Positions 38,157-42,400 of a stretch of DNA of 48,403 bases are shown in pieces. The position numbers and the translations under genes were made by a program. Origin of the DNA: Gammaproteobacteria bacterium. GTDB lineage: Bacteria; Pseudomonadota; Gammaproteobacteria; Thiohalomonadales; Thiohalomonadaceae. Under the pieces are notes generated by a model. That model was not told the origin of the DNA. It was given only the letters and a program-made list of their open reading frames with translations, and did not search any database. The number at the start of each line of letters is the position of its first letter. Position 1 is the first letter of the stretch. The stretch lies in assembly GCA_003252455.1 (NCBI GenBank), contig QKED01000054.1, positions 1 to 48,403 of the forward strand. Reading direction: 5' to 3'.

Positions 38157-38465
38157 TCAGGCGCTGAGCAGCACCATGCCGTCCACCACCTTCACCTCAC
38201 GGGTGCGCACGCAGCCCACGTCGGGGGCGATCGCCTCGCCACTGGAGAGGTCGATGCTCCAGTTGTGCAGCGGGCAGGCGACCGCGTTGCCGTAGACGAT
38301 CCCTTGAGAGAGCGGCCCGCCCTTGTGCGGGCAGCGATCGCGCAGGGCGAAGAGGCGATCGTCGGAGGTGCGGAAGATGGCGAACTCGCCCGCCTCGGTG
38401 ATGACGGTGCGGGCGCCCAGGCGCGGAATATCGTCCAGTTTGCCTACAGTGATCCAGTCGGACAT
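38157..38465 (-). CDS. nirD: Nitrite reductase small subunit (Rieske type)
   Basis: The 102-residue Rieske-fold protein carries the CPH and CPLH ligands of the [2Fe-2S] cluster in CPHKGGPLSQG and ACPLHNW. NirD partners NirB in NADH-dependent reduction of nitrite to ammonium in the cytoplasm. ATG 38465 is chosen; the frame upstream to 38546 lies in the intergenic region. It follows nirB after 92 bp. Confidence 0.94.
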   Translation of the reverse strand: MSDWITVGKLDDIPRLGARTVITEAGEFAIFRTSDDRLFALRDRCPHKGGPLSQGIVYGNAVACPLHNWSIDLSSGEAIAPDVGCVRTREVKVVDGMVLLSA

Positions 38466-38493
38466 GGTGTGATACCTCGATTCTGCATGAGGG

Positions 38494-38532
38494 CCGCAAG
38501 GGCGCGGGCGCTGCCGCAGACCGCCCTTGCGG
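38494..38532 (-). promoter_or_regulatory. Intergenic hairpin between nirB and nirD
   Basis: An 11-bp perfect stem (CCGCAAGGGCG with CGCCCTTGCGG) encloses a 17-nt loop. It may set the nirB:nirD mRNA ratio through processing or stability. Confidence 0.5.
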
Positions 38533-38557
38533 GGGCGTGGTGACACGGGCGTGGCGA

Positions 38558-40993
38558 TCAGGCCTCGGCCTTCATCGGCACGAACTCCAGACGGTGCTCG
38601 GGCTTGGTGTGCTCGGCCCAGGGGTCCTTCTGCCCGATACGCTGTGACTCCAGGAAGCGTGCGTAGAGCGCCTGACGCCCCGCCGCATCCTCGACGATGT
38701 GCTGCTTGACGTAGGGTAGACCGACACGCTCGACCCAGGGGGCGGTGCGTTCCAGATAGCGGGCGTTCTCGCGGTAGAGCTGCATGAAGGCCCCGGCGTA
38801 CTCCAGCACCTCGGCGTCGCTGGTGACGCGGCAGAGCATGTCGGTGACGCGCACCTTGAGGCCGCCGTTGCCGCCCACGTGCAGCTCCCAGGCACCATCG
38901 ATGCCGACCACGCCGAAGTCCTTGATGGTCGCCTCGGCACAGTTACGCGGGCAGCCGGAGACCGCCATCTTGTACTTGTGCGGGGTCCAGGAGGCCCAGG
39001 TCATCTTTTCGAGGTCTATGCCCATCTGGATCGCGTCCTGCGTGCCGAAGCGGCAGAACTGCGAGCCGATGCAGGTCTTCACCGTGCGCAGCGCCTTGCC
39101 GTAGGCGTGGCCGGAGACCAGGCCTGCGGCGTTGAGGTCGGCCCACATCTCGGGCAGTTGCTCCTTCTTCACGCCCACCAGGTCGATGCGCTGACCGCCG
39201 GTGATCTTCACCATCGGCACGTCGTACTTCTCGGCGGCGTCGGCGATGGCGCGCAGCTCGGCGGGGGTGGTGACGCCGCCCCAGATGCGCGGCACCACGG
39301 TGTAGGAGCGGTCCTTCTGGATGTTGGCGTGGGTGCGCTCGTTGATGAAGCGCGACGAGGGGTCATCGACCGCCTCGGCGGGCCAGCTGGCGAGCATGTA
39401 GTAGTTGAGCGCCGGGCGGCAGGTGGGGCAGCCATCGGGGGTGTGCCAGTCGAGGGCGCTCATGGCCTGCTCGCGGTTGGTCAGGCGCTGCTCCTTGACC
39501 GCCTTGATCACCTCGTCATGGGTGTAGTCGGTGCAGGCGCAGAGCGGCTTCTTGTCCGGGGCGACGTACTCGCCACCGACGGTGGCGGCGAGGATCTGCT
39601 CAACCAGGCCGGTACAGCCGCCGCAGGAGGCGCCCGCCTTGGTGTGCTTCTTCACCTCGTCGAGGGTGAAGAGGCCCTTCTCGCGCACGGCGTTGACGAT
39701 GTCACCCTTGCACACGCCGTTGCAGTCGCACACCTGGGCGCTGTCGGCCATGTGGTCGGCGGTGTTCTCGCCGCCGTGACCGGCGTCGGAGAGATGGGTG
39801 CGACCGAACATCAGCTGGTCGCGGTGGGCGGAGATGTCGGAGCCGTTGCGCAGCAGCTCGAAATACCAGGCGCCGTCGACGGTGTCGCCGTAGAGCACGC
39901 AGCCCTCGATCTTCTCGTCGCGGATCACCAGCTTTTTGTAGACGCCGCGCGCTGGGTCCTTCATGACGATGGACTCGGTCCCCTCACCGCCGGTGAAGTT
40001 ACCGGCGGAGAAGAGTTCGATACCGGTCACCTTGAGGCGGGTGGCGAGGGTGGTGCCCTCGTAGTGGCCGATGCCGTGGCGCGCCAGGTGGTTGGCGCAC
40101 ACCTTGCCCTGCTCGAACAGCGGTGCCACCAGGCCGTAGACATTGCCACGGTGCTGCACGCACTCGCCGACGGCGTAGATGGCCGGGTCGTAGGTGAGCA
40201 GGGTGTCGTCGACCACGATGCCGCGCTCGCAGTGCAGGCCGGACTCCTTGGCCAGCTGGATGTTGGGGCGGATGCCCACGGCCATCACCACCAGGTCGGC
40301 GGGGATCTCGCGGCCATCCTTGAGGCGCAGCGCCTGCACGCGCCCCTCGCCCACCAGGCACTCGGTGTTGGCGCCGGTGATGATGTTGAGGCCACGCCCC
40401 TCCAGCTCGCTCTGGAGCATCTTGGCCGACTCCTCGTCGAGCTGGCGCTCCATCAGCACGTCGGGCAGGTGGATGACGGTGACCGCCATGCCCTGGTTGA
40501 GCAGACCCACGGCGGCCTCTAGGCCGAGCAGGCCACCGCCGATGACCACGGCGTTCTTATGGCTGCCCGCGGCGGCGAGCATGGCGTCCACGTCGGCGAT
40601 GGTGCGAAAGCCGATGACGCCGTCGAGGTCGTGACCCGGCACGGGCAGGATGAAGGAGCTGGAGCCGGTGGCCAGCAGCAGGCGGTCGTACTCCGCCTCG
40701 GTGCCGTCGGCGGTGATCACCTTGCGCGCCTGACGGTCGATGCTCACCACCGGGGAGCCGGTATGCAGGGTGATGTTGTGCTCGGCATACCACTCGGGGC
40801 TGTTGAGGATGATGTCGTCGAACGACTTCTCGCCGGCCAGCACCGGGGAGAGCATGATGCGGTTGTAGTTGGGGTGCGGCTCGTCACCGAAGACGGTGAT
40901 CGCGTACATCTCCGGCTCTAGCTTGAGCAGCTCTTCGAGGGTGCGCACCCCGGCCATGCCGTTACCGATGAGGACCAGTTTCTCTCTCTGCAT
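38558..40993 (-). CDS. nirB: NADH-dependent nitrite reductase large subunit
   Basis: The 811-residue subunit reduces nitrite to ammonium. It has an FAD/NADH oxidoreductase domain (N-terminal LVLIGNGMAGVRTLEEL and the internal NAD motif VVIGGGLLGLEAAVGL), two BFD-like [2Fe-2S] cysteine regions (CDCNGVCKGDI and CACTDYTHDEV), and the siroheme/[4Fe-4S] domain with TCIGSQFC and GCPRNCAEA. The length is normal. GGAGC lies 9 nt before the ATG, right after a terminator in the leader. The promoter region suggests nitrogen control, which would fit an assimilatory role. Confidence 0.96.
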   Translation of the reverse strand: MQREKLVLIGNGMAGVRTLEELLKLEPEMYAITVFGDEPHPNYNRIMLSPVLAGEKSFDDIILNSPEWYAEHNITLHTGSPVVSIDRQARKVITADGTEAEYDRLLLATGSSSFILPVPGHDLDGVIGFRTIADVDAMLAAAGSHKNAVVIGGGLLGLEAAVGLLNQGMAVTVIHLPDVLMERQLDEESAKMLQSELEGRGLNIITGANTECLVGEGRVQALRLKDGREIPADLVVMAVGIRPNIQLAKESGLHCERGIVVDDTLLTYDPAIYAVGECVQHRGNVYGLVAPLFEQGKVCANHLARHGIGHYEGTTLATRLKVTGIELFSAGNFTGGEGTESIVMKDPARGVYKKLVIRDEKIEGCVLYGDTVDGAWYFELLRNGSDISAHRDQLMFGRTHLSDAGHGGENTADHMADSAQVCDCNGVCKGDIVNAVREKGLFTLDEVKKHTKAGASCGGCTGLVEQILAATVGGEYVAPDKKPLCACTDYTHDEVIKAVKEQRLTNREQAMSALDWHTPDGCPTCRPALNYYMLASWPAEAVDDPSSRFINERTHANIQKDRSYTVVPRIWGGVTTPAELRAIADAAEKYDVPMVKITGGQRIDLVGVKKEQLPEMWADLNAAGLVSGHAYGKALRTVKTCIGSQFCRFGTQDAIQMGIDLEKMTWASWTPHKYKMAVSGCPRNCAEATIKDFGVVGIDGAWELHVGGNGGLKVRVTDMLCRVTSDAEVLEYAGAFMQLYRENARYLERTAPWVERVGLPYVKQHIVEDAAGRQALYARFLESQRIGQKDPWAEHTKPEHRLEFVPMKAEA

Positions 40994-41007
40994 GGGATTT
41001 TTGCTCC

Positions 41008-41057
41008 AAAAAAAAAGCCCTAAGCGCAGGGACCATCTGGTCTTGCGCTTAGGGCTT
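41008..41057 (-). terminator. Intrinsic terminator in the nirB leader (attenuator)
   Basis: A 14-bp perfect stem (41015-41028 with 41044-41057) is followed on the minus strand by a run of about nine T residues, then at once by the nirB ribosome-binding site GGAGC. Its place inside the nirB leader, downstream of the promoter, means transcription into nirB must read through it. Confidence 0.85.
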
Positions 41058-41187
41058 CGTTACCCGAGTCAGCCGACGCGACTGACGTGTTGTAAGGTCT
41101 CTCAATCACCCCTCGGGCGGTACTCCCGAGGCGGCACCTTTACCCCCTCGGTCGCTCACCGACCCAGTGCGGGGCAGGATTGAACTG
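41058..41187 (-). ncRNA. Structured nirB leader with mutually exclusive stems
   Basis: On the minus strand, GTAAAGGT (41136-41143) pairs with ACCTTAC (41092-41098) and encloses a 7-bp hairpin (41125-41131 with 41111-41117). The same 41125-41131 segment can instead pair with 41146-41151, so two folds exclude each other. A further 7-bp hairpin is at 41068-41086, directly before the terminator. The layout is like antitermination leaders of nitrate-assimilation operons, but no hexaloop with the ANTAR A1/G4 pattern was found, so the signal is unknown. Confidence 0.55.
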
Positions 41188-41197
41188 CTCAGTCAAA

Positions 41198-41213
41198 TGC
41201 AGATTACGTGCCA
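41198..41213 (-). promoter_or_regulatory. Sigma-54 promoter for nirBD
   Basis: TGGCACG-N4-CTGCA on the minus strand matches the -24/-12 consensus TGGCACG-N4-TTGCA with one change, and the invariant GG and GC are correctly spaced. The start site would be near 41187, giving a leader of about 195 nt. Confidence 0.75.
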
Positions 41214-41279
41214 CAATCATTAAATGTATAAAATACATTGAGTTACGGCGATACATAGGGTGACACGGGGATGGTGGCA

Positions 41280-41296
41280 TGCACTACTTGTGTGCA
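41280..41296 (-). promoter_or_regulatory. NtrC-like enhancer site upstream of nirBD
   Basis: TGCACT-N5-TGTGCA differs from the NtrC consensus TGCACY-N5-GGTGCA by one base and is centred about 100 bp upstream of the predicted start. It sits in a 12-bp perfect inverted repeat (41273-41284 with 41292-41303). A weaker match, TGCACC-N5-GGGACA, lies at 41323-41339, four helical turns away. Confidence 0.6.
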
Positions 41297-41376
41297 TGCC
41301 ACCCTGCATGCGACGCCACCGCTGCACCGGGATGGGACAGAGAGAGGCGTCAAGTGGGGTGGATAGCGGGGTTGGG

Positions 41377-42147
41377 CTAAAGGTGTAGGGCCTGGGGGGT
41401 GACGCTGCCGACGGCCTCCTCGACCCACTGCATCAGGCGGCGCCACGCCTTGCGGTCGTGGTAGACGGCTCGCCCTTTCATCTCGACCACGCCGACGCCA
41501 TCCTCGGCGGCCTGCACATAGACCTGGGCGTCGCGCAGACGCGCCACCACGGGGATACCGGTCTCTTCGAGGAAGCTGTCGAGTAGGTGGTAGGCCTTGG
41601 TGTTCTCGCGCACGCGGTTGGCGATCACCCCGACGCGCACCTGCCCCGAGCGCACCCGGGGCAGCTTGTTGAGCTCGTTGAGGAAGATGCGCGCCGCATC
41701 GATGTCGATCACCGAGGCGAGCACCGGGATGAGCACCACGTCGACCTCACGCAACATATCGGCGAGGGGGAAGCCACCGACACCCGCTGGGGCATCGAGC
41801 ACCACGCGCTGGGCGTCGGGGGGCAGGCGGGTGGCGAAGGAGCGGGTCACCCCCCCAAGGGCGCGGTGAGGCGAGATGCCATAGATGCTCGGGGCGAGGT
41901 TGCTGCGGGTATCGAGCCAGCGGGAGCTGGAGCCCTGCGGGTCGTGGTCGATGAGTACGGTACGCAGCTCACTCCCGGCATAGAGCGAGGCGAGATTGAT
42001 GGCGACCGTGGTCTTACCACAGCCCCCCTTGGTGTTGGCGATCAGGATACGTAACGGCTTGTCCACAGGCTGGCCGCTCCCGAGGCCACGATGCTGCGCG
42101 CGGGCACCCTCCTTATCGCCACGACTGACGCCTCTGCTTCCCCACAT
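41377..42147 (-). CDS. Orphan ParA-family ATPase
   Basis: The ParA/MinD-type protein has a deviant Walker A, NTKGGCGKTT, Walker A' LIDHDPQGSSSRW and Walker B VVLDAPAG. A charged N-terminal stretch of about 32 residues precedes the fold. There is no partner parB beside it. ATG 42147 has GAGG 7 nt upstream; ATG 42153 and GTG 42165 are alternatives. It is divergent from the unrecognised helical protein at 42401 with an AT-rich 253-bp gap between. It may partition a cytoplasmic cargo other than the chromosome. Confidence 0.85.
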   Translation of the reverse strand: MWGSRGVSRGDKEGARAQHRGLGSGQPVDKPLRILIANTKGGCGKTTVAINLASLYAGSELRTVLIDHDPQGSSSRWLDTRSNLAPSIYGISPHRALGGVTRSFATRLPPDAQRVVLDAPAGVGGFPLADMLREVDVVLIPVLASVIDIDAARIFLNELNKLPRVRSGQVRVGVIANRVRENTKAYHLLDSFLEETGIPVVARLRDAQVYVQAAEDGVGVVEMKGRAVYHDRKAWRRLMQWVEEAVGSVTPQALHL

Positions 42148-42400
42148 GGTCATACCTCGATCCACGGTCTCTGCATCTCATTTCCCTCAGAAGGAGGATA
42201 GAGAGTGTAGGGCCACTAATGCAAGCGCTCAGCGGCCCAATCGCACAATATTATTCAATATCTTTCTTCTTATATTTCAGATTTATAGGACAACTTCTTC
42301 AGGTAATCTTTCTACTCCTTCACAGTGCGGGCTATTGTGACACCTGTAGGGCAGACGTTAGCATTGGCCCTCCCCTCCCCCGCTTGACCCGCCCTCGGCC
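42148..42400. promoter_or_regulatory. AT-rich divergent promoter region between parA-like and helical-protein genes
   Basis: The middle of this gap (about 42245-42320) is strikingly AT-rich for this genome, with TATTATTC and TTATATTTC stretches. It presumably holds back-to-back promoters; no single pair of elements stands out. Confidence 0.45.

Follow-up and report, generated by a model that had tools for sequence, protein, structure and literature searches.

The nitrite reductase gene nirB of this gammaproteobacterium is preceded by a long leader ending in an intrinsic terminator, which raises the question of what the terminator is for and what might relieve it. In the window, by which we mean the whole stretch of 48,403 nucleotides that was analysed, nirB (nitrite reductase large subunit, 811 aa) occupies 38558-40993 on the minus strand, with its ATG at 40993, and is followed by a gene for a nirD-like Rieske protein of 129 aa (38157-38546, minus strand) that is probably the second gene of the nirB operon. 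The 194-nt minus-strand leader folds with a predicted energy of -94.5 kcal/mol, compared with a mean of -68.2 kcal/mol for shuffled sequences (z -5.9; 0/200 shuffles equal), bearing out the original prediction of a folded leader of about 195 nt before nirB. The terminator (41008-41058, minus strand; -31.1 kcal/mol), which had been described as a 14-bp stem with about nine T residues, proves to have a 15-bp stem (41058-41014) and nine T residues (41016-41008), and ends 14 bases before the ATG; the probable ribosome-binding site, judged by its sequence, is GGAG at 41004-41007 on the minus strand. A simple terminator scan of a 4-kb region, taken alone, is at chance level (2 found, 1.7 expected). 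We regard the leader and its terminator as real, and we assign a probability of roughly 85% to the reading that this is a NasR-type ANTAR antitermination leader. It is an unusual version of the ANTAR switch, with recognition hairpins (P1 and P2) that lie far apart and a third hairpin (H3) between them. The features read directly from sequence are both predicted hexaloop hairpins, the exclusion of P2 by the terminator, conservation and covariation among relatives, a second leader, and ANTAR genes.

Upstream of the leader, TGGCACGTAATCTGCA at 41198-41213 (minus strand; GG-N10-GC) is a putative sigma-54-type promoter. The predicted RNA start lies near 41187, and the start originally assumed there is compatible with this site. 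TGGCACNNNNNYTGCW has a single mismatch-free match in the window, which is the promoter site, and eight matches with at most one mismatch, compared with 4.5 expected. Among the seven leaders of the class described below, six have an upstream site that departs from TGGCACNNNNNTTGCW at one position at most; the seventh, L029, has three mismatches. The Klebsiella nasF leader also has a sigma-54-type promoter, like the putative one at nirB here; this leader and NasR of Klebsiella oxytoca were reportedly studied by Chai and Stewart in 1998 and 1999. Some 100 bp ahead of the predicted nirB start lies a perfect inverted repeat of 12 bp around a 7-nt centre (41273-41303, no strand assigned). Its core, TGCAC-N7-GTGCA at 41280-41296, resembles an NtrC site. 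The core matches once in the window, compared with 0.12 matches expected, and at least once in 12/100 shuffles; in the six other leaders of the class its best match has 1-2 mismatches, which is weak evidence alone. The minus-strand order is thus inverted repeat (41303-41273), promoter (41213-41198), P1, H3, P2, terminator, GGAG and ATG. An AT-rich palindrome, aatgtat aaa atacatt, lies at ~41222-41240, flanked by the NtrC-like repeat and the promoter, and a gene for a ParA/MinD-like ATPase (41377-42165, minus strand) lies directly upstream of the promoter region.

ANTAR targets have been defined as two hairpins, each with a stem of 3 bp or more, separated by a linker of variable length, with A in the first and G in the fourth position of both hexaloops (PMC3369931). 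The nirB leader has two hairpins of this kind. P1 (41126-41151, minus strand) has 9 bp and one G-G mismatch below the hexaloop AAAGGU (41141-41136), and P2, GGGU[AACGAA]GCCC (41052-41065, minus strand), has 4 bp and its hexaloop at 41061-41056; each loop is closed by a U.G pair. Both loops have A1 and G4, contradicting the original statement that the hexaloop ANTAR signature was not to be found, and the leader, going by its predicted fold, carries that signature twice. A scan of the window for two hexaloops with an overlapping terminator gave one match in the real sequence and no match in the reversed sequence or in any of 20 shuffled sequences. The predicted probability of P1 is 0.80-1.00 across six transcript lengths; the energy model also permits an A1-U6 pair inside the P1 loop of the window, giving a tetraloop, which counts against the ANTAR reading. 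Both A1 and G4 are present in both hexaloops of 6/7 leaders of the class, the exception being the transporter leader of this same genome, in which the P2 loop is GAAGAA, without A1. P2 and the terminator are predicted to be mutually exclusive because the terminator's 5' arm includes the 3' arm of P2; the GCCC common to both arms is found in 7/7 leaders, as expected of an ANTAR target of the terminator type. P2 alone has an energy of ~ -5.6 kcal/mol, compared with -31.1 kcal/mol for the terminator, and the RNA would therefore be expected to terminate by default, with P2 dependent on a protein that holds it.

Two ANTAR proteins were found in the genome, a NIT-ANTAR protein encoded on contig C41 and a receiver-ANTAR protein encoded on contig C87. 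NIT domains sense nitrate and nitrite. The NIT-ANTAR protein, whose gene lies outside the window at C41 5346-6752 (L006), matches Klebsiella NasR (4AKK) with an E value of 1.8e-37. When 20 genomes of the order were searched by blastn with the nirB leader, only its own genome gave matches, and these included a second ANTAR leader with U.G closing pairs (C41 10170-10010, minus strand), before a transporter-kinase-cyanase gene set. This set, at C41 6776-10170 on the minus strand, consists of formate/nitrite transporter, PP2C-kinase fusion and cyanase genes and is convergent with the NIT-ANTAR gene. An RNA model run over the same genome, with 150/1560 first-look candidates scored, returned the two known leaders, which are built into the model, and weak plus-strand matches to their terminators. 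From this neighbourhood, and from the occurrence of U.G-closed leaders with NIT-ANTAR genes, we infer that the NIT-ANTAR protein is the one that acts on nirB.

The receiver-ANTAR gene lies directly before genes for an NMT1-type binding protein (called nrtA-like here), a permease and an ATPase, and a canonical ANTAR leader is present between them (C87 6490-6660, minus strand; L007). This leader shares with that of nirB its genome and a dual hexaloop overlapping a terminator, but differs from it in having loops 21 nt apart, C:G closing pairs, the loop AAAGGC in both hairpins, and a receiver-ANTAR gene as neighbour. With a second ANTAR protein encoded in the genome, directly before the nrtA-like operon, the nirB leader could be a target of this NasT-like receiver-ANTAR protein, or of both ANTAR proteins. 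We consider this unlikely, since the leader beside the receiver-ANTAR gene itself is canonical, since canonical leaders were found in 3/6 short-ANTAR loci scanned (L007, L117 and L118; not L119, L121 or L142) and U.G-closed ones in none of the six, and since a Ctena-symbiont genome with a nirB leader has one ANTAR protein, of the NIT type.

Leaders with U.G closing pairs recur outside this genome. The pattern GGTANNGNNGCC-N50-80-GGGTNANGAAGCCC occurred twice in the genome itself and in 0/368 other class genomes searched. A wider pattern was found in 2/40 genomes from the order to which a Competibacteraceae genome belongs and in 3/195 from that of the Ctena symbiont, and its backward control gave none among the matches listed. 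Together these make a U.G class of seven leaders, distributed over six genomes; nirB follows four of them and a transporter gene the other three. A NIT-ANTAR protein was detected in four of the five other leader-bearing genomes, so that 5/6 genomes of the class encode one, as in NasR systems. Conversely, NIT-ANTAR proteins were found in 3/195 genomes of the Ctena-symbiont order, two of which carry a leader; in the third, G488, the contig stops within nirB, hiding any leader there. The remaining genome, G471, has a nirB leader of the class (L132, C2 6297-6404, minus strand) and no detected ANTAR match, which could reflect an incomplete assembly, a lost regulator or another regulator. Within the family of the window genome, nirB was present in 13/20 genomes (own included), and a two-strand scan of 12 loci (L009-L020) found no leader of the class. 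In genome G447 (L134, 3672-12624), one leader precedes nirB, followed by transporter and kinase genes, with the NIT-ANTAR gene convergent; in the window genome, unlike G447, the nirB and transporter gene sets lie apart, each with its own leader.

In an alignment of the seven leaders, 97.3% of cells in P1 and the terminator were paired. Both sides changed in 8/21 pairs (P1, 5/9; terminator, 3/12), a level that 0/500 shuffles reached on any of five measures; sliding the partners lowered all five. The original prediction had proposed a covariation check of nirB leaders; in these seven leaders the pairs of P1 and the terminator covary. Little variation is seen in the inner P1 pairs (GGU with GCY) or in the four pairs of P2, as would be expected of a recognition site. 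The fifth pair of P2 varies jointly with the terminator (A-U to G-C) but is broken in the window and in L128. These data also bear on whether the structure is a plain, unregulated terminator, acting for example against upstream read-through or for the plus strand. Terminators are common, the simple terminator scan does no better than chance, and the stem is near-palindromic, with a weak plus-strand match to the RNA model (E 2.3e-4). However, in 7/7 leaders the terminator is flanked by a promoter-like site on one side and the nirB or transporter start codon on the other, with a covarying P1 and an H3 upstream of it, and we regard a plain terminator as very unlikely.

The original prediction had also described alternating stems, in which 41131-41125 pairs with 41117-41111 and so takes the 3' arm of P1. 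The complementarity exists; the mean predicted probability of the stem, however, is 0.00-0.03 in the six transcript lengths in which P1 reaches 0.80-1.00. In the other six leaders pairing of the 3' region of P1 with the linker is possible over 5-7 bp, at a site that differs among them; because the position varies, no equivalent of the alternative stem is kept in place. P2 and the terminator, rather than the alternating stems, form the conserved exclusive pair. For a riboswitch or a protein-free attenuator working through these stems, the low probability, the absence of an equivalent stem kept in place in the other leaders and the lack of any Rfam match at gathering score in the window make such a switch extremely unlikely, real as the complementarity is. 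Seven lax Rfam matches near the leader (E 0.57-8.2) appear to be chance hits, and the best of them, NsiR1, fits the terminator shape only. The original proposal of a terminator leader of the Klebsiella nas type before nirB thus stands, while its fallback of a different RNA switch does not, given that hexaloops are present, a NIT-ANTAR protein is encoded and the element recurs in five other genomes.

Where the nirB leader departs from known ANTAR targets, on sequence grounds, is in its U.G closing pairs, its linker and the position of H3, and the whole class shares these departures. The linker between P1 and P2 is 60 nt in the window and 34-71 nt in the class. H3 (41068-41086, minus strand; -9.8 kcal/mol) ends 2 nt before P2, and 2/100 shuffled linkers were as stable. 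In 7/7 leaders a corresponding hairpin ends 0-2 nt before P2, and in each leader at most 2/100 shuffled linkers were equally stable; MAFFT did not align H3 across leader groups, and these values come from leader-by-leader assessment. The three closest nirB leaders have a linker of 15 nt, H3 and 2 nt. In the window leader alone, the minimum-energy fold has an outer helix that encloses P1 (41184-41170 with 41112-41101, within 41101-41184, minus strand) and absorbs the extra length, leaving 14 nt, H3 and 2 nt before P2. H3 was considered as a third ANTAR hexaloop and rejected; its loop is not conserved.

The closest described system is the nasF leader of Klebsiella oxytoca with its regulator NasR, which has two A1/G4 hexaloops, a P2 exclusive with the terminator, a NIT-ANTAR protein and genes of nitrate/nitrite assimilation (PMC7496416). 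The same source gives C:G closing pairs for both hexaloops from in vitro selection (SELEX) with Klebsiella NasR (PMC7496416). By contrast, U.G pairs close P1 and P2 in 7/7 leaders of the class, and the window leader has a 60-nt linker with H3. The eut leaders of Enterococcus faecalis, bound by EutV, are likewise dual-hexaloop antiterminators with P2 overlapping the terminator, but EutV has a receiver domain, the pathway is that of ethanolamine, and the linkers are 5-12 nt (PMC3369931, PMC8934654). According to the same sources, a eut linker of 14 nt or one lengthened by 20 nt lowers or abolishes activity (PMC3369931, PMC8934654), and a curated set of ANTAR targets applied a linker rule of 2-25 nt (PMC8164766). 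The 60 nt of the window and the 34-71 nt of the class lie outside both ranges.

From the elements described we infer a course of events in which promoter use, protein binding, the ligand, the sign of the effect and the part played by H3 are all proposals. Under nitrogen limitation, the sigma-54 promoter, probably with NtrC, would start nirBD transcription near 41187. The strong terminator would fold by default and the RNA would stop before the ribosome-binding site. Nitrate or nitrite would bind the NIT domain of the C41 protein, whose ANTAR dimer would then bind the hexaloop of P1 and next that of P2. Held in this way, the weak P2 would take the GCCC of the terminator 5' arm, and polymerase would read into nirBD. 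H3, beside P2, would probably serve to compact the long linker or to allow time for binding.

The spacing matters for how ANTAR dimers use two hairpins. The EutV structure paper argues against the dimer holding both hairpins simultaneously, and reports that lengthening the linker stops antitermination (PMC8934654). Linkers of 34-71 nt with a hairpin kept beside P2 are natural exceptions, and make the use of two hairpins by a dimer testable. Since EutV loses activity on linker lengthening, these leaders either restore the distance by a folded linker or serve a protein, NasR, that needs no such distance. The class also falls outside the 2-25-nt curation rule (PMC8164766), and such regulons may therefore be missed. 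A tentative extension, which we think possible but would not favour, is that the NIT-ANTAR regulators of one clade have RNA targets of their own, with U.G-closed hexaloops (P1 AANGGY, P2 NANGAA) and a long linker with a needed H3 beside P2, insulated from the canonical C:G short-linker target of the second ANTAR protein in the same cell. If this were true, a fixed short spacing of P1 and P2 would not be a requirement for an ANTAR dimer. With its two ANTAR proteins and two kinds of target, the window genome offers a ready test of target discrimination.

We also compared the class with leaders at 86 loci (L022-L107), mostly of betaproteobacteria, chosen for a match to a NasR-like protein. A scan for dual hexaloops with a terminator matched 67, compared with 2 when reversed and 2 when shuffled; with a stricter P1 loop the figures were 65, 0 and 0. 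These leaders share with the class the order of P1, linker and P2/terminator. In a set of 74 leader rows, with one P1 chosen per leader by rule so that a few may hold the wrong P1, both closing pairs were C:G in 62/74, in line with the in vitro selection by Klebsiella NasR, the commonest loops were AACGGC, AATGGC and AAAGGC, and the linker exceeded 25 nt in 29/74, indicating that long linkers are not rare there. A second set of 67 leaders from 65/86 loci, kept by the P1 loop AA[ACT]GG[CT], was used for linker structure. The loops lay more than 31 nt apart in 39/67, and every such linker was predicted to contain at least one helix, often weak. Of 19 kept leaders whose loops are separated by more than 48 nt, seven (three of them of the present class) have a hairpin of -5 kcal/mol or lower abutting P2, and nine have none; a stable hairpin beside P2 is not general among NasR-like leaders. 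Our literature search found no account of long structured linkers in NasR leaders; it covered subscription journals thinly and so proves nothing. The residue before the conserved ANTAR Met is S in seven and A in three proteins with a U.G-closed P1, compared with 3 S, 48 A and 4 unreadable for C:G/C:G leaders (among the NIT-ANTAR proteins of L028-L040, S tends to accompany a U.G-closed P1). Serine as a determinant of the U.G preference was rejected, the NasR of the window genome having alanine and the proteins being related by descent, and is a lead only. Two of the NasR-like loci, L033 and L034 (Zoogloeaceae), have U.G pairs closing both hexaloops, as in the class.
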